A DNA stretch of 19,789 bases from Methanoregula sp. (GTDB lineage: Archaea; Halobacteriota; Methanomicrobia; Methanomicrobiales; Methanospirillaceae): positions 11,454-31,242 of the forward strand of contig PNBP01000057.1 of assembly GCA_003136075.1 (NCBI GenBank), given 5' to 3'. The stretch's first letter is position 1, and each line of letters begins with the position of its first letter. Below are positions 5,688 through 10,188 of this stretch, in pieces. The translations under genes were made by a program, and so were the position numbers. The notes below the pieces were generated by a model. The model made no database searches. It had not been told where the DNA came from and was given only the letters and a program-made list of their open reading frames with translations.

Positions 5688-6777
5688 TGTCAACCAAGTT
5701 AGTGTGACGAATCCCATCTTCGCGTTTTAACTCCTGATTCTGACGTACATAAATCGTAACATGGTATAAAATAGGGCGGATCTTTGAAATTTTTATAGAT
5801 ATCCATATAAAAACCAGTTATCGGGTAATTTATTGAAAATATTGCTCTGTAGAAAACCTTGAATGTAAGAAATAATAAGAACCTGTGGATGTTACAGACA
5901 ATCATTTTGTTAGCGATTTCTTTGATCTGAATTCGGAATTTTCTCGCTTTGAGATCCCCCCTGAACTTTTTTTTCAGGACAGAGAATTTATTTTCCACGA
6001 GTTGTCTCCTGGGATAAATAATGTTATTGAACTGACGAGCCATTTCCTGACGGTAGGTTCCCCCGATAATCTCGTTATTCCAGGAGCGGATAGGGATAAC
6101 AGAATTGGCATGAAGTTTTTCCCGGATCAATCGATGAATTGCTTCAGAGTCGTATCCTTTATCCATGACGTAACAATCGGACTTTCGGATTTTGTGACAT
6201 TGCTGGAGTAATTTTTCTGCATGGCGTGTATCATGGATCCGACTGTTTGAGGCAACAAATCCAGTAATCACCTGTTGCTCGGTATCGACCGATATCGAAG
6301 TTTTCAGGAAATGTTTTTGGATCTTACCGGTTCGTTCTGAGAAATAATGGCTACAGTACCCGCTGGTAAATCCAGAAGAATCGATAGCGATTATCGGAAT
6401 ATTTTCATTGGTTGTGTAGAACAGGTTCACGGTCTTTCTGAAAGTTAACCGGAGATAAAAAGATTTCACTCGTGAGAGAAATTTCTGAAGCGTTGTGAAA
6501 TGGGGTACTACTGATAGATCAAGGATCTCTTGAACTCCTTCCATATCTTTGACATCTTCGATGAATTCCCGGTAGTGCTGATTACGGAAATCTTTGAACA
6601 GAATCAGGATGAGCAGTTGATGTTGGGTGTAGATCTGCTTTGAAAATTTACATGAGTACGGATTGAGATGAGTTGACTTTATGACTGAAATGGCGGTCTG
6701 GATAAACCTGATATTCCGGCTTGCTGATTTCTTTGTTGTCTCCTTGCAATTTGACGACACATCAAAGTAAGGAGACA
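5688..6777 (-). mobile_element. IS5/IS4-type insertion sequence (ends approximate)
   Basis: About 1.1 kb containing one DDE transposase. Both outer edges start with TGTC when read inward, and imperfect inverted similarity extends over about 23 bases: left TGTCAACCAAG...GTGTGACG, right TGTCTCCTTAC...GTGTCG, roughly 13 matches with one gap. The similarity may extend outward to GGTTAC / GGTACAT. I could not find a target-site duplication, so the exact ends are tentative. Confidence 0.6.
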
Positions 6778-6778
6778 A
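5699..6778 (-). CDS. DDE transposase, IS5/IS4 superfamily
   Basis: A 359-residue transposase of the RNase H-fold DDE type. The first Asp is D133 in AIDSSGF and the second is D206 in VMDKGYDSE. The third acid is E262 within YPRRQLVENKFSVLKK, which matches the IS4-type signature Y-x2-R-x3-E-x6-K exactly. The frame is intact, so the enzyme could be active. The only standard start in the early part is a TTG at 6778 that lies on the presumed right end of the element, and the stop lies inside the left end. Both are therefore read through terminal repeat sequence. The last 40 or so residues beyond KVFYRAIF look like read-through rather than conserved domain. A shorter protein with an undetected start is possible. 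Confidence 0.85.
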   Translation of the reverse strand: MSPYFDVSSNCKETTKKSASRNIRFIQTAISVIKSTHLNPYSCKFSKQIYTQHQLLILILFKDFRNQHYREFIEDVKDMEGVQEILDLSVVPHFTTLQKFLSRVKSFYLRLTFRKTVNLFYTTNENIPIIAIDSSGFTSGYCSHYFSERTGKIQKHFLKTSISVDTEQQVITGFVASNSRIHDTRHAEKLLQQCHKIRKSDCYVMDKGYDSEAIHRLIREKLHANSVIPIRSWNNEIIGGTYRQEMARQFNNIIYPRRQLVENKFSVLKKKFRGDLKARKFRIQIKEIANKMIVCNIHRFLLFLTFKVFYRAIFSINYPITGFYMDIYKNFKDPPYFIPCYDLCTSESGVKTRRWDSSH

Positions 6779-6986: not shown

Positions 6987-7332
6987 TACCGTAAAGGGTT
7001 ACATTTTTGTCATTGTATGAATTAATAAATATTTTGGTCAGAACGCGGTTTTGGAGCATAGAATCGATACAAACCAGCGGTTTATTCTATGAAAAATGGC
7101 AGTAACCGGATATCTGCAACAATTCAGGCAGTTTTGTTATGAAATGCGCAATTACGCAAATTACGCCTTTTTTTCCGATTGCTCCAATACTCTTTGAATA
7201 AAAAATATCTTATCAGACCAAAATACATGTAAACAACGAGGAAAATGGATTGGCGCGGCAGCTAGAATTATTCAATACATTTTGAGTGTGCCCGGGTTTA
7301 CATGCTACAGGGATAAAAAGTAATCTTTATTC
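6987..7332. other. Intergenic stretch with the promoter of the Lys/Ala-rich gene
   Basis: On the minus strand AATATTTATTAAT (7021-7033) is a plausible TATA box about 50 nt before the small gene. The remainder shows only a short tandem-like ATTACGC repeat (about 7150-7167) and no convincing gene. Confidence 0.4.
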
Positions 7333-7385
7333 GGTTCTGTTAACTTGGCGTGGGATGATTCAGAATGTTAACTGTCGTGGGATAG
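7333..7385 (+). repeat. Left end of the IS6-like element: terminal repeat plus sub-terminal copy
   Basis: The outer motif GTTAAC-TTGGC-GTGGGATG starts at 7339. The inner motif GTTAAC-TGTC-GTGGGATA starts at 7367. Spacing is 28 bp, matching the other end. Confidence 0.85.
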
Positions 7386-7402
7386 TTTCAAAATAGAATG
7401 GG

Positions 7403-7410
7403 TATAAAAT
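7403..7410 (+). promoter_or_regulatory. TATA box for the small membrane peptide gene
   Basis: TATAAAAT, 49 nt before the ATG at 7452. It lies just inside the element end, so the passenger gene appears to carry its own promoter. Confidence 0.45.
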
Positions 7411-7451
7411 CGCTAGACTTATGCCGTCAATAACTCATATGAAACTATTGT

Positions 7452-7637
7452 ATGGTTAGTAGAGATGGATTACCTGCATTGGGCTGCATAGGACTCGGCA
7501 TTCTTTTTATTTACATTGCGGCGACGGCAAGATTAGACATAATATTAGTTTGGATAGGGATTTTTCTCATTTTTGTTGGAATTGGAATAAATATATGGAT
7601 GGCATCTAATTCCAATTGGGTACGATTCGGTAAATAA
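7452..7637 (+). CDS. Small membrane protein with two predicted helices, unknown function
   Basis: A 61-residue peptide made largely of two hydrophobic segments, ALGCIGLGILFIYIAATA (about 9-26) and IILVWIGIFLIFVGIGINIWM (about 30-50), joined by a short RLD turn, with a polar tail ending RFGK. I recognise no family. It lies inside the IS6-like element, convergent with the transposase gene (8 nt between stops), and so is likely a passenger gene. No ribosome binding site is evident. An overlapping frame from ATG 7439 (MKLLYG, then stop) lies just before it. The small size and hydrophobicity would fit a holin-like or toxin-like peptide or merely a membrane accessory; none of these is demonstrated. 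Confidence 0.55.
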   Translation: MVSRDGLPALGCIGLGILFIYIAATARLDIILVWIGIFLIFVGIGINIWMASNSNWVRFGK

Positions 7638-7645
7638 AATTGAAA

Positions 7646-8686
7646 TTATTTTGCTGCCGTTGCAGCATTCTGAATCAGCGTTATCCACTTGTTTTCTCCC
7701 TCAACAACAATACCACATACATCAGCCGGTGTCTTTCCGTCAAGAGCTTCGTGGGGTCGGATGTAGTTGTGATAAATCTGCATCCCCGGTAGAACTTTTG
7801 TATCGACTTTCTTTAATCCCCGCATTGTCTTTTCCCTATCGCGGATCTCCCCGTTAATTCTCTCCATCTTATTGTTGTTCTCGTTCCACGCATTCCCCGT
7901 GAGTTTTATGGCATTAACATGACGGGAGCGCGGATTTGTAACGGTGAAAAGTTCGCGGTTGAATGCGTCATGGTACGCCGGTAGTCCATCGGTGATCATA
8001 ACGTTGGGACGCTTTCCCGCGATCTCTTTTGCATCGTGGAAAATCTTTGCCGCGTCATGCTTGAACTTTGACCCCGCGACTTCCTGTGCAATCCAGTACC
8101 GGGTTTCGTCGTCCATCACGGCAAACACATACTTCATGTCACCCTTGATTTTGATGTAAATTTCATCTGCTCTCCATGTATCTGATACCTGTGGCTGGAT
8201 CTTCTCGATGTATTGCTCCATCAGTGAGGTGTATTTATTAATCCACTTGTAGACGGCAACGTGAGAGACTTTAACCCCGCGAAGTTTGAGTGCCTTGGTA
8301 ACGTTCCTGAATGAAAGCCCAGTGAAGTAGAGCTGCATCGCGGCTGTAATGTCCTGTGGTGTAGATTTCATGCCCTCAAACCCTGCATTCAGGACAAAGT
8401 GCTGCCCGCATTCCTTACAATAGTAAACCTGTATGTCGCCGTAATCATTGTGCCTTATGCCGTCCTTGATGATATAAGAGGAACCGCAGTACGCGCAGAG
8501 ATCCGCCGCCGTGTTAATCGGGGTGATCCTCTTGACAATCTCAACCTGTTTACGGATGGCGAACGAGAGTTTCACGGCGATGATATGTTTGCACTCGACA
8601 CCGCGCATCTGGTGATCTGGGCAATTGCAAGACCAGCCGAGATCGGTTTTCTTGACCTGATACGAGCCATGACCGGATTGTGACAT
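7646..8686 (-). CDS. IS6/IS240-type transposase with SWIM and zinc-ribbon domains
   Basis: From ATG 8686 the protein has 346 residues. A SWIM-type zinc finger (C20-x-C22...C32-x-H34, in GWSCNCPDH...ECKHI) comes first. A zinc ribbon with C64, C67, C90 and C93 follows, then a helix-turn-helix-like region (about 110-150) and the DDE domain of the IS240 type: D174 in WRADEIYIK, D233 in MITDGLPAYHDAF and E275 in NNKMERINGEIRDREK. The reading frame is intact to the stop. Clearly coding-like sequence continues about 28 codons upstream of the first ATG (reading TTTREERGKAITEKKGQIW), where homologues as I remember them begin. No ATG, GTG or TTG occurs between the upstream in-frame TAG and 8686. The start codon may therefore be lost or unusual, and this could be a weakened gene. 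Confidence 0.85.
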   Translation of the reverse strand: MSQSGHGSYQVKKTDLGWSCNCPDHQMRGVECKHIIAVKLSFAIRKQVEIVKRITPINTAADLCAYCGSSYIIKDGIRHNDYGDIQVYYCKECGQHFVLNAGFEGMKSTPQDITAAMQLYFTGLSFRNVTKALKLRGVKVSHVAVYKWINKYTSLMEQYIEKIQPQVSDTWRADEIYIKIKGDMKYVFAVMDDETRYWIAQEVAGSKFKHDAAKIFHDAKEIAGKRPNVMITDGLPAYHDAFNRELFTVTNPRSRHVNAIKLTGNAWNENNNKMERINGEIRDREKTMRGLKKVDTKVLPGMQIYHNYIRPHEALDGKTPADVCGIVVEGENKWITLIQNAATAAK

Positions 8687-8813
8687 GATACGGTACAGAC
8701 TGTCGCTGTATCTCCAGATCTGGCCTTTCTTTTCGGTGATTGCTTTTCCGCGTTCCTCTCTGGTTGTGGTTAGGGGTGCAAAAATTTGGGACCTCTCTCT
8801 TACCTCACATATA

Positions 8814-8827
8814 TTTTGGTGCCAAAA
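8814..8827. promoter_or_regulatory. Palindromic operator 1 (TTTTGG-TG-CCAAAA)
   Basis: A perfect 6-2-6 palindrome immediately on the transposase side of the TATA box. It is matched by a second palindrome with the same arms 24 bp away (centre to centre). Likely a dimeric regulator site, with the adjacent AbrB-like protein as first candidate. Confidence 0.65.
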
Positions 8828-8828
8828 C

Positions 8829-8836
8829 TATATAAG
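8829..8836 (+). promoter_or_regulatory. TATA box of the AbrB-like gene, between two operators
   Basis: TATATAAG (in CTATATAAG) lies about 50 nt before ATG 8884 and exactly between the two palindromes. Read on the minus strand it is CTTATATAG, so it could serve the divergent transposase gene as well. Confidence 0.6.
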
Positions 8837-8852
8837 TTTTTGGCTCCAAAAA
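8837..8852. promoter_or_regulatory. Palindromic operator 2 (TTTTTGG-CT-CCAAAAA)
   Basis: A perfect 7-2-7 palindrome with the same TTTTGG/CCAAAA arms as operator 1. It overlaps the expected RNA polymerase footprint between TATA box and start site, so binding there would repress. Confidence 0.65.
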
Positions 8853-8883
8853 TTATTTATGTATTAGGTGTAAATTACATACT

Positions 8884-9087
8884 ATGAAATTGCAAAAACA
8901 GAAAGCATGGACATACAAAGACACCGAGTATGCAAAATACTCTATCGTTATCCCAAACAAGGAAATTGATAAACTCGGATGGAAAGAGGGAGATGAATTA
9001 GAATCAATCATTAAGGGGGAAAAACTTGTTATAGCGAAAAAAACACCCAAACAAATTGAGATAAATACTCCCTTATTTGGGAATTAA
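8884..9087 (+). CDS. AbrB/SpoVT/MazE-type DNA-binding protein
   Basis: A 67-residue protein with the swapped-hairpin AbrB-type core: YAKYSIVIPNKEIDKLGWKEGDELE (about 16-40), then the second strand pair SIIKGEKLVIAKK (about 41-53). Such proteins dimerise and act as transition-state regulators or as antitoxins that repress their own operon. An AGGTG (8866-8870) lies 13 nt before the ATG. The promoter is bracketed by two palindromes, fitting autoregulation. It is followed after 49 nt by an HNH nuclease gene on the same strand and diverges from the transposase gene. A regulator of the element or an antitoxin are both possible; the sequence alone does not decide. Confidence 0.75.
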   Translation: MKLQKQKAWTYKDTEYAKYSIVIPNKEIDKLGWKEGDELESIIKGEKLVIAKKTPKQIEINTPLFGN

Positions 9088-9136
9088 TATATCTATTAGG
9101 AATAATATCACATCTCATTATAGAGGTATTAGTTCA

Positions 9137-9595
9137 ATGAATCGAAAGGATCTTTCAAGAAGTTATACGCGTAGAGAGCCAGAGAAGCCAAAAGAGCCAG
9201 AGAAACGCGTATTGTCACCATCTCAAAAAAATAACATTAGACTTGTTTTTGAGGAGGGTGAGTACAGAGGGTGCCATAGGGCGCCGCACGAAGTGCATCA
9301 TATTAATGAGGATAAAACCGATGACTCTTATAAAAATTTAATTGTGTTATGTGGTGCTTGTCACGATGATGCGCATGGAAAAAATCCTAAAAAACAAAAA
9401 ATACCAAGAGAGAAATTGTATGGTATAGTAAAAAGACGTGCCAGTAATAAAGAAAAACGAATTAAAGAAATATTGTCAAAGAAAAGTAATCCTCGGAAAT
9501 CAAATAAAAACTCCGATTTTCCAAAATTATTAGAGATGCCAAAACCTTTAGATTACACAAAATTAGATTTGGGACTAAAGGGGAAATTTTATTGA
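9137..9595 (+). CDS. HNH endonuclease-like protein (passenger gene)
   Basis: A 152-residue basic protein. The HNH motif is clear: HEVHHINEDKTDDSYKNLIVLCGACHDDAHG, with the HH pair, the central Asn and the CxxCHxxxH end. Only one Cys (in RGCHRAP) precedes HH, where many members have CxxC, so the zinc site may use a different ligand or be incomplete. The N-terminus is Arg/Pro/Glu-rich and the C-terminal third Lys-rich, suggesting nucleic-acid contact. I chose ATG 9137, which has AGAGGT 9 nt upstream; a TTG at 9077 would overlap the regulator gene. It is AT-rich in codon use compared with the flanking housekeeping genes. Position after an AbrB-like gene suggests a possible toxin or effector role (inference). 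Confidence 0.75.
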   Translation: MNRKDLSRSYTRREPEKPKEPEKRVLSPSQKNNIRLVFEEGEYRGCHRAPHEVHHINEDKTDDSYKNLIVLCGACHDDAHGKNPKKQKIPREKLYGIVKRRASNKEKRIKEILSKKSNPRKSNKNSDFPKLLEMPKPLDYTKLDLGLKGKFY

Positions 9596-9608
9596 AATAC
9601 TCCCCAAT

Positions 9609-9854
9609 TTAGGTTGAGACAAAAAAATTTCCGTCGATCAACCTCACATAACGAAACCCCATCCTTTTTAGCGACAGTATTCCGCTTTTAATTCCCTTTT
9701 TTTGGGGGATTCCCGCCCAAACGAAAATTTTTTCATTAATTTTACGTTGATGAAGTGTTCTCTTTGCAGGACTTAATAGCCTGTCATTTGATGCATTTTT
9801 TAATGATTCCAGCAATCTTTTCTTACTAATCCATACCCCATTATCAGTAGACAT
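9609..9854 (-). CDS. 81-residue protein of unknown function in the element
   Basis: I do not recognise this protein. It is basic and has a pattern of helices followed by strands: STDNGVWISKKRLLESLKNASND, then KINEKIFVWAGIPQKKGIKSGILSLKRMGFRYVRLIDGNFFVST. The start at ATG 9854 is set by a very good ribosome binding site, GGAGGT, 8 nt upstream; the frame is also open to an ATG at 9902 without such a site. It converges with the HNH gene (13 nt between stops) and lies about 75 nt inside the right sub-terminal repeat, so it moves with the element. The compact size and basic character could suit a DNA- or RNA-binding accessory protein, but no motif proves this. Confidence 0.6.
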   Translation of the reverse strand: MSTDNGVWISKKRLLESLKNASNDRLLSPAKRTLHQRKINEKIFVWAGIPQKKGIKSGILSLKRMGFRYVRLIDGNFFVST

Positions 9855-9929
9855 TTTGTTTACCTCCATAAATTTCAAAGGATCGGGAATTCTTTCCGTC
9901 ATCTCCAGTCAACACACCAGAATCCCCAA

Positions 9930-9982
9930 GTATCCCACTTTGGTTAACAGTCATCTCCACCCCACACCAAGTTAACAGAACC
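9930..9982 (-). repeat. Right end of the IS6-like element: terminal repeat plus sub-terminal copy
   Basis: Read inward on the minus strand, the outer motif GTTAAC-TTGGT-GTGGGGTG begins at 9976 and the inner motif GTTAAC-CAAA-GTGGGATA at 9948. The 28-bp spacing and the 5-nt and 4-nt inner spacers copy the left end. Confidence 0.85.
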
Positions 9983-10188
9983 GTCAAGAACAATTAAAAT
10001 TGTGAGGTATTCCCCCAGAATAGTATCCACAAGTTTAGTTGTCCCTCTACACTAGACCTCCGGATTCCATCACAATAAAAAAACGGAGAAGATATGGCAT
10101 CTACTGATTTGAGTATATTATTGCCGGAGATGGCAAAAAATAAACATACCCCCTATTCCGGCAAGGCGGCGGAGAGGGATTCATCTCA
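9983..10188. other. Intergenic stretch beside the element
   Basis: Between the element end and pmbA. It contains an 8-bp inverted repeat, TTGCCGGA (10121-10128) and TCCGGCAA (10157-10164), with a 28-nt loop, which could close the pmbA transcript from the minus strand. A doubtful 50-codon frame from 10094 runs into pmbA antisense. Nothing else is supported. Confidence 0.35.

Follow-up and report, generated by a model that had tools for sequence, protein, structure and literature searches.

Doubled ends of a long archaeal IS6-like element and its relatives: two predicted transposase sites per end that covary with the transposase

Why does an IS6-like element carry its end motif twice at each end? 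The question is raised by an element of Methanoregula sp. within a window of 19,789 nucleotides (the whole stretch of DNA analysed; Table 1), for which the first-pass annotation had suggested two transposase binding sites per end, perhaps one of them for a SWIM or zinc-ribbon module. Classical IS6 ends had been described there as short and single, which agrees with the available parts of PMC7986276 and PMC6807381 and also with the ends of IS26, IS1216 and a Methylosinus IS6 that were scored here, where inner-copy scores of 8-10 lie at the null level. A literature search returned no account of such doubled, covarying IS6-like ends.

Table 1. Features of the element in the window (positions count from the first letter of the window).
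Feature	Position	Strand	Remark
Whole IS6-like element	7333..9982	.	2,650 bp; without target duplication at the window copy
Left outer site, first half TGTTAAC	7338..7344	+	
Left outer site, second half GTGGGAT	7350..7356	+	
Left inner site, first half TGTTAAC	7366..7372	+	offset 28
Left inner site, second half GTGGGAT	7377..7383	+	offset 27
Right outer site, first half TGTTAAC	9971..9977	-	
Right outer site, second half GTGGGGT	9959..9965	-	
Right inner site, first half TGTTAAC	9943..9949	-	offset 28
Right inner site, second half GTGGGAT	9932..9938	-	offset 27
Transposase	7646..8686	-	SWIM, zinc ribbon, HTH, IS6-type DDE domain
AbrB/MazE-like protein, 67 aa	8884..9087	+	divergent from transposase; over Pfam cut-off
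HNH-type protein, 172 aa	9077..9595	+	weak matches; HNH just under cut-off
ORF, 97 aa	9609..9902	-	no family above cut-off
ORF, 61 aa	7452..7637	+	many hydrophobic residues; no family

The left end of the window element begins with GGTTC, followed by TGTTAAC TTGGC GTGGGAT (outer site, N5 after GTTAAC) and TGTTAAC TGTC GTGGGAT (inner site, N4); the right end reads, on the reverse strand, TGTTAAC TTGGT GTGGGGT and then TGTTAAC CAAA GTGGGAT, and the inverted arms span 7332-7387 and 9928-9983. The geometry initially described was thus confirmed: a 25-bp terminal inverted repeat with two mismatches (the first 25 bases from 7333), a second motif copy whose first half lies 28 bp further inward at both ends, and spacers between half-motifs of 5 nt in the outer and 4 nt in the inner copies. 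Inner and outer copies match at 14/14 positions on the left and 13/14 on the right, and each end has one sole best inner position, where the first half is displaced by 28 bp and the second half by 27. That this is improbable by chance, as had been supposed, is borne out by shuffling the inner sequence 10,000 times, with a top score of 13 over all offsets that was reached only twice.

The boundaries assigned to the element likewise hold, as the same tip (GG....CTGT in the window element and the relatives) is bordered in relatives by exact target duplications of 8 bp. Flank homology also marks the right boundary, DNA resembling the right flank beginning at window position 9983 in genomes G063 and G067 (and at 9990 in G054). 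A target duplication was looked for at the window copy and is absent, and no empty site of this copy was found, only its right flank having relatives; this flank resembles a short repeated sequence.

Among 127 unique transposases, an 8-bp target duplication was detected for 87, two of them probably by chance; removal of these two (L238 and L254) left the 85 elements bounded by target duplications that are referred to as relatives in the following (an earlier count had left out 11 of 89 as chance duplications). The true register of the duplication yielded 84 elements and six wrong registers, serving as control, 0-2. Transposases without detected ends number 40/127 in this main set, 54/98 in a held-out set (partly the same genes as in the main set) and 8/15 in a last family, and the held-out counts retain four likely chance ends (L316, L327, L333, and L341). 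The relatives are 1,970-8,762 bp long (median 3,294, n=85), with at least 860 bp of DNA outside the transposase gene in each (median 2,184). Within one class, 88 of 300 genomes contain a transposase match at E <= 1e-60, and database searches at E <= 1e-10 gave 5,941 and 5,569 relatives. Two scans of viral contigs found 7 and 9 loci and two others none, and no record among the best 5,000 plasmid records or among 28 phage records covered 80% of the query at a single place.

The doubled end structure proved to be a family trait: in 69 of the 85 relatives, at least one end has an inner copy in phase. An inner copy matching at 11/14 positions or better is present at 126/170 ends and is phased, with the second half one base nearer, at 103/170 (shuffled sequence: 0/170); it should be kept in mind that inner copies were found by their similarity to outer ones. 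Where a single best place exists (108 ends), the offset is 26-29 bp at 52 ends, 36-39 bp at 46, 40-41 bp at 3, 48 bp at 2, and elsewhere at 5, with none at 30-35 bp, and the copies therefore keep one face of the DNA. The shift of the second half by -1 recurs in 92 of these 108 ends without tie-breaking. Furthermore, among the 68 elements with an offset class at both ends, the two ends agree in 66 (0.48 expected if independent), including 45/47 of those with unlike spacers, and the tree shows at least 23 switches of class. The spacers of the two arms are identical in 19/56 elements, and in 16 of these 19 the similarity ends no more than 3 bases from the inner site. The letters of the half-sites vary between elements and agree within one element. 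Sites, geometry, and target duplications of the relatives, like the covariation described below, are read directly from the sequences.

The element had also been credited with at least four non-transposase genes, and four open reading frames fit this count (61, 67, 172, and 97 aa), of which only the 67-aa frame passes a Pfam cut-off. The transposase frame itself is open upstream, and relatives begin about 39 residues earlier; no in-frame ATG, GTG or TTG was seen by eye in this extension. An AbrB/MazE-like frame occurs in 33/85 relatives and is divergent from the transposase and at most 700 bp away in 29/85, an arrangement that would suit inner copies serving as operators, bound by the transposase or the AbrB-like protein for control of transcription and dispensable for transposition. 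However, the end far from the transposase start also has an inner copy of the same class in the 66 elements mentioned above, and the site letters track the zinc ribbon and HTH of the transposase, so that we consider this role quite improbable.

This tracking became apparent among 76 elements under 85% identity, with the maximum of 500 permutations as threshold. The first half covaries in its letters with the HTH recognition helix, the second half with the zinc ribbon, few transposase residues being involved: for the first half, only three recognition-helix columns exceed the permutation maximum of 0.28 (r 0.42, 0.34, and 0.32), and for the second, only two zinc-ribbon columns exceed that of 0.33 (r 0.41 and 0.38), although covariation does not separate direct from indirect effects. 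In a structure model of the transposase (mean pLDDT 77), the residues covarying with the second half lie on strands of the zinc ribbon (local pLDDT about 67) and those covarying with the first half where the third HTH helix begins; an earlier model was poor (pLDDT 56). The comparison of relatives thereby suggests which amino acids of the transposase read which DNA letters.

Predicted from transposases less than 60% identical, second-half base 3 was correct in 73/77 cases (majority baseline 32), base 5 in 69/75 (41), and base 2 in 67/75 (54), while first-half rules, with relatives left out at 60%, gave 48/74 for A4 (baseline 42) and 50/76 for A5 (51). Within the derivation sample, the rules hold for inner sites no less than for outer ones (base 5: 135/139 and 124/139, respectively). 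Once fixed, the rules were applied to 17 elements of the same clade outside the derivation set, 15 of which had already been fetched at that time with most ends visible; base 3 was met in 31/34, base 5 in 26/28, and A4 in 18/20 (permutation p <0.001 each). Base 2 is weak in the held-out sets (same clade 18/30, distant SWIM-bearing 13/30, without SWIM 1/10), Ile pairing with A or G rather than T at this base in the same-clade elements, and the base 3 rule fails in transposases without SWIM (6/14). A last family fetched after the rules scored 6/6, 8/12, and 12/12 at bases 2, 3, and 5, its six elements forming too small and uniform a set to be discriminated by the permutation test. Its base-3 misses concern one His and one Tyr element, both with T, and the code therefore depends on context. 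In short, prediction by the zinc-ribbon rules works well among related elements but breaks down in part among distant ones.

Residue-base links of this kind could also be a by-product of shared ancestry without any recognition code, given that the permutations ignore the tree and the rules weaken in distant groups. Transposase identity, however, accounts for little of the site likeness (r 0.13 and 0.18), bases 3 and 5 are predicted at 92-95% from transposases less than 60% or less than 50% identical, and the columns above the permutation maximum are confined to the two expected DNA-binding modules, all of which makes common descent an unlikely explanation. We lean slightly towards a zinc-ribbon code of nearly one residue to one base, in which residues 114, 126, and 135 of the L003 transposase would pair with second-half bases 5, 2, and 3, together with a partial HTH code and arms homogenised by copying of the whole end module.

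The idea of one motif copy being reserved for the SWIM or zinc-ribbon module is not borne out, as both copies carry both halves, the first covarying with the HTH helix and the second with the zinc ribbon. SWIM as reader of the inner copy was rejected, too: no SWIM-region column stands out, the highest r being 0.11 with the first half-site and 0.10 with the second. More broadly, the inner copy might be read by the SWIM domain or another protein, its likeness to the outer copy being inherited, and nine transposases without an aligned SWIM part indeed show no doubled ends (0/18). On the other hand, no column points to SWIM, the inner sites follow the rules of the outer ones, and one SWIM-bearing group (L188, L192, L298-L301, and L307; assembled without a tree after its ends were seen) has single sites only (0/14 ends), which leaves such a separate reader doubtful. 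Doubling thus follows SWIM only in part, and the domain may matter for it. L251 of the first set resembles this single-site group.

With respect to known systems, the window transposase shares with IS6/IS26 the DDE domain (PF13610, DDE_Tnp_IS240; 51.7 bits, cut-off 27), the tips, and, in relatives, the 8-bp target duplication; the NCBIfam IS6 model (NF033587) spans the HTH and DDE part and scores 123.7, 122.4, and 123.7 bits for three transposases, just under its cut-off of 125. In contrast to most IS6 members, with transposases of 213-254 aa (PMC7986276, as far as available), the transposases here have about 385 aa and include SWIM and zinc ribbon. Their ends, unlike a single repeat of 15-20 bp, comprise about 51-61 bp with two sites, and the length of the relatives sets them apart from short, transposase-only IS6 elements, the available text of PMC7986276 naming one IS6 member with a passenger gene. 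A search with PF13610 at 1e-20 in 61 genomes gave no match and hence no short-IS6 control. The long clostridial members (clades h/i in PMC7986276, VII/VIII in PMC6807381) likewise have a transposase extended at its N terminus by a zinc finger, and their terminal repeat consensus is longer, with ends aligned over the first 20 bases only in the available part of PMC6807381; the word SWIM is absent from the latter. The zinc ribbon resembles the zinc-binding domains of IS1/IS1595 and IS256 type, albeit just below cut-off (NF050000 26.5 versus 28, NF048018 22.5 versus 27), and no solved structure matched the transposase sequence at E 0.1. Repeated transposase sites per end, here known from sequence alone, are found in other families, namely IS21 (IstA), Tn7 (TnsB), and Mu (MuA). 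IS21 ends have two repeats each (L1/L2 and R1/R2) with two conserved blocks, 23 bp apart and bound by an IstA tetramer (PMC10122671, in the portion available). As for an AAA+ partner, none was noticed, with one AAA_31 member present among the 25 listed of the 46 Pfam families from 139 cargo ORFs.

Two transposase sites per end, as first suggested, are a well-supported prediction that extends far beyond the window element, and as explanation overall we consider it probable that each end is bound by two protomers, with one complete bipartite site read by each of them. In each of the two tandem sites, one protomer would read the TGTTAAC half with its HTH recognition helix and the GTGGGAT half with its zinc ribbon. 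Catalysis at the GG tip would fall to the outer protomer; the inner one, placed further in and in relatives sometimes by one or two extra helical turns on the same DNA face, may take part in assembling a paired-end complex of two-fold symmetry that is probably a tetramer. Transposition of the element would then produce an 8-bp target duplication and take along the genes between its ends. Direct contacts, the number of protomers, the tetramer, and the need for the inner site are what we infer here.

With these results, a widespread group of archaeal transposons gains a defined end structure, and the covarying ends suggest how its elements can maintain separate specificities. They bear on the role of second terminal repeats in Tn7-like ends, an open question according to the available part of PMC10122671, and on whether long IS6-like elements deserve families of their own, as raised for archaeal and long bacterial members in the accessible text of PMC6807381. 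The group may also offer a natural zinc-ribbon recognition code that is amenable to binding assays; if this code is true, transposon ends would be largely predictable from the transposase sequence.

The window sequence bears out both features that the first-pass annotation had described for the ends of the 2,650-bp element: a 25-bp terminal match that contains two mismatches and, at either end, a further copy of the bipartite motif 28 bp inward. With the motif taken as 7+7 letters, inner and outer copies agree in 14/14 letters at the left end and 13/14 at the right, each at a single best place, with an offset of 28 for the first half-site and 27 for the second at both ends; a score of 13 was reached twice in 10,000 shuffles. 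As to the at least four non-transposase genes described there, four further ORFs fit in the element. Upstream of the transposase start the frame remains open, and relatives in the alignment begin about 39 residues earlier; no in-frame ATG, GTG, or TTG was seen by eye in this extension. The same genome contains a 40 % identical paralog and, on contig 178, a lone element end. Since a separate transposase gene (DDE_Tnp_1) lies just left, the element adjoins other mobile DNA. Its right flank resembles short sequences in the same-genus genomes G063, G054, and G067, with ends similar to inverted repeats and CACTAGTG on both sides in G063, perhaps representing a small non-coding mobile element.

Features of the window element and its surroundings
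Feature	Position	Strand	Remarks
Element	7333-9982		
Transposase	7646-8686	minus	SWIM match, CxxC...CxxC zinc ribbon, HTH, IS6-type DDE domain
ORF	within element		61 aa
AbrB/MazE-like ORF	within element		67 aa
HNH-like ORF	within element		172 aa
ORF	within element		97 aa
DDE_Tnp_1 transposase gene	5699-6778	minus	
Right flank	9983-10055		

Ten related loci came from a scan of genome contigs. The closest belongs to a Methanoregula MAG (89 % identical); further ones are in MAGs named Bathyarchaeota, Nitrososphaeraceae, and Nitrosopumilus and, as fragments, in MAGs named Methanosarcina and Nitrososphaerales. Whole-genome searches with the transposase profile A1 (E <= 1e-60) gave matches in 18/392 genomes of the window's phylum, 28/256 of the class of locus L004, and 88/300 of the class of locus L008. 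The stretches then collected held 127 unique full-length transposase genes, 87 of them with ends bounded by an exact 8-bp duplication (86 finds in the true register vs 3-14 in six wrong ones; 84 vs 0-2 at 15/24 tip matches). Two of the 87, judged likely chance, were left out of the doubling and cargo counts (n=85). The stretches at loci L243, L257, and L235 each contain two or three of these transposases, and in L243 an identical 8-bp duplication recurs around adjoining elements, which hints at repeated or targeted insertion.

The 85 relatives measure 1,970-8,762 bp (median 3,294), and 33 carry AbrB/MazE-like ORFs. In a cargo sample of 139 ORFs from 78 loci (up to two ORFs of at least 110 aa per element), N6-methylases were commonest among the 25 of 46 Pfam families listed (6 matches), followed by Eco57I-type (4), proteasome-like (4), Type I specificity (3), SDH protease (2), and Fic (2), these matches overlapping one another; locus L005, for example, carries methylase and specificity-like genes.

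An inner copy of at least 11/14 letters was present at 126/170 ends, and at 103/170 it lay in the phased windows with its second half one base closer, as compared to 0/170 after shuffling; 69/85 elements have a phased copy at one end at least, and 16 have none. Among 108 single best places, 92 showed the one-base shift without tie-breaking, and offsets fell at 26-29 (52), 36-39 (46), 40-41 (3), 48 (2), or elsewhere (5), with none at 30-35. The classes lie about one helical turn apart. Where both ends could be classed, the class is the same at both in 66/68 elements (0.48 expected), including 45/47 with unlike spacers, though on the tree it changed at least 23 times, close to the mean of 27 after shuffling. 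By eye, loci L197 and L200 have three tandem motif copies per end, about 15 bp apart, rather than two.

Half-site letters vary across 82 elements (GTGGGAT, GTCGGAT, GGTTGAT, GGGACAT, GGCTCAT, and others). When covariation was computed over 322 transposase columns with overall identity controlled for, all five top-ranked second-half columns fell in the zinc ribbon and all three top-ranked first-half columns at the HTH recognition helix (the script's rough domain bins cut both modules at other positions). On 76 elements below 85 % identity, the only columns to exceed the maximum of 500 permutations were two in the zinc ribbon and three in the HTH. A second structure model (mean pLDDT 77, 74 sequences) predicts helices and strands for the SWIM part (~15-87), zinc-ribbon strands at 111-119, 122-129, and 135-138 (pLDDT ~67), HTH helices at 149-160, 165-174, and 181-199, and, after these, the catalytic part with its own strands and helices; covarying residues map to the three predicted ribbon strands, the remaining ones to the beginning of the third HTH helix or immediately before it.

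Residue-base pairings (L003 numbering, i. e., script position + 12; bases 2-5, second half-site; A4 and A6, first half-site)
Base	Residue	Pairings
2	126	Arg-G 49/51, Lys-T 11/12
3	135	Arg-G 23/24, Lys-G 7/8, Thr-T 18/19, Trp-C 11/11, Tyr-C 8/9
5	114	Asp-G 22/23, His-C 16/17, Lys-C 6/7, Arg-C 5/5
A4	182	Val-T 20/20, Gln-A/C 16/17
A6	186	Asn-A 32/33, Arg-C 10/10

Pairing of Arg, Lys, or His with G on either strand is in line with known protein-DNA contacts. The window sites are consistent with every rule that applies to the corresponding residues of its transposase (Val87, His96, Asp75, Ser141, Val143, Lys147), and inner sites follow the rules as outer sites do (in-sample). In locus L246, bounded by an 8-bp duplication and having one transposase, the second halves differ between the ends (inside: GGTTGAT vs GGGACAT), which could reflect a hybrid element or chance.

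The rules were fixed first and then applied to 44 elements outside the derivation set, grouped by profile score and SWIM; 19 of these (L305 on) were collected after the rules, only two of them among the same-clade 17 (score at least 400). A further family of the window's phylum was also collected afterwards; its six core elements gave no permutation p <0.05 for any rule, because they are few and alike.

Agreement in held-out sets and in leave-relatives-out tests (baseline in brackets)
Set	Base 2	Base 3	Base 5	A4	A5	A6	A7
Same clade (17)	18/30	31/34	26/28	18/20	20/26	12/14	6/8
Distant SWIM (18)	13/30	25/34	13/20	12/20	11/22	15/22	2/6
Without SWIM (9)	1/10	6/14	6/8	10/10 (equal to its null)	14/16	14/14	4/4
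Further family (6)	6/6	8/12	12/12	11/12	10/10	10/10	0/2
Leave-relatives-out at 60 %	67/75 (54)	73/77 (32)	69/75 (41)	48/74 (42)	50/76 (51)	61/70 (50)	42/70 (28)

As these tests indicate, the zinc-ribbon part is strong inside the clade and weak beyond it.

Phased ends numbered 16/34 in the 17 SWIM-bearing elements, namely 16/20 in ten (the window's own copy included) and 0/14 in seven, a split made post hoc once the ends were known; the seven resemble a single-site clade. The 18 distant SWIM-bearing elements had 12/36 phased ends and the nine whose profile match lacks the SWIM part 0/18; one of the nine, L341, is possibly a SWIM-bearing gene in broken form whose ends are chance finds. In the further family, 12/12 ends of the six elements are doubled at 28, and a seventh, distant member does not fall in the phased windows with the one-base shift. 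IS26, IS1216, and a Methylosinus IS6 scored 8-10, the null level.

That classical IS6 ends are short, as the first-pass annotation stated, agrees with PMC7986276 and PMC6807381, which also report that long clostridial members have zinc fingers; one member carrying a passenger gene is named in PMC7986276. PMC6563490 counts thaumarchaeal IS families, with nothing on such ends in the passages concerned, and our literature search, with subscription papers mostly outside reach, turned up no account of doubled ends in IS6-like elements or of a zinc-ribbon code. The best working parallel is IS21 (PMC10122671).

In the 56 elements whose two ends share a register, spacer likeness between the arms is nearly all-or-nothing: 100 % identity in 19, 83-89 % in three, and below 75 % in 34 (mean 0.33). 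Among the 19 identical ones, likeness stops 0-3 bases from the inner-site end in 16, four of which have mismatches inside the inner site; in L174, L268, and L194 it continues past the site. From such patterns, we infer that one end has been copied over the other. This copying perhaps takes place in the paired-end complex; it may or may not have to do with the conservative reaction of IS26, which according to PMC7885326 requires identical DNA extending inward from the end that reacts.
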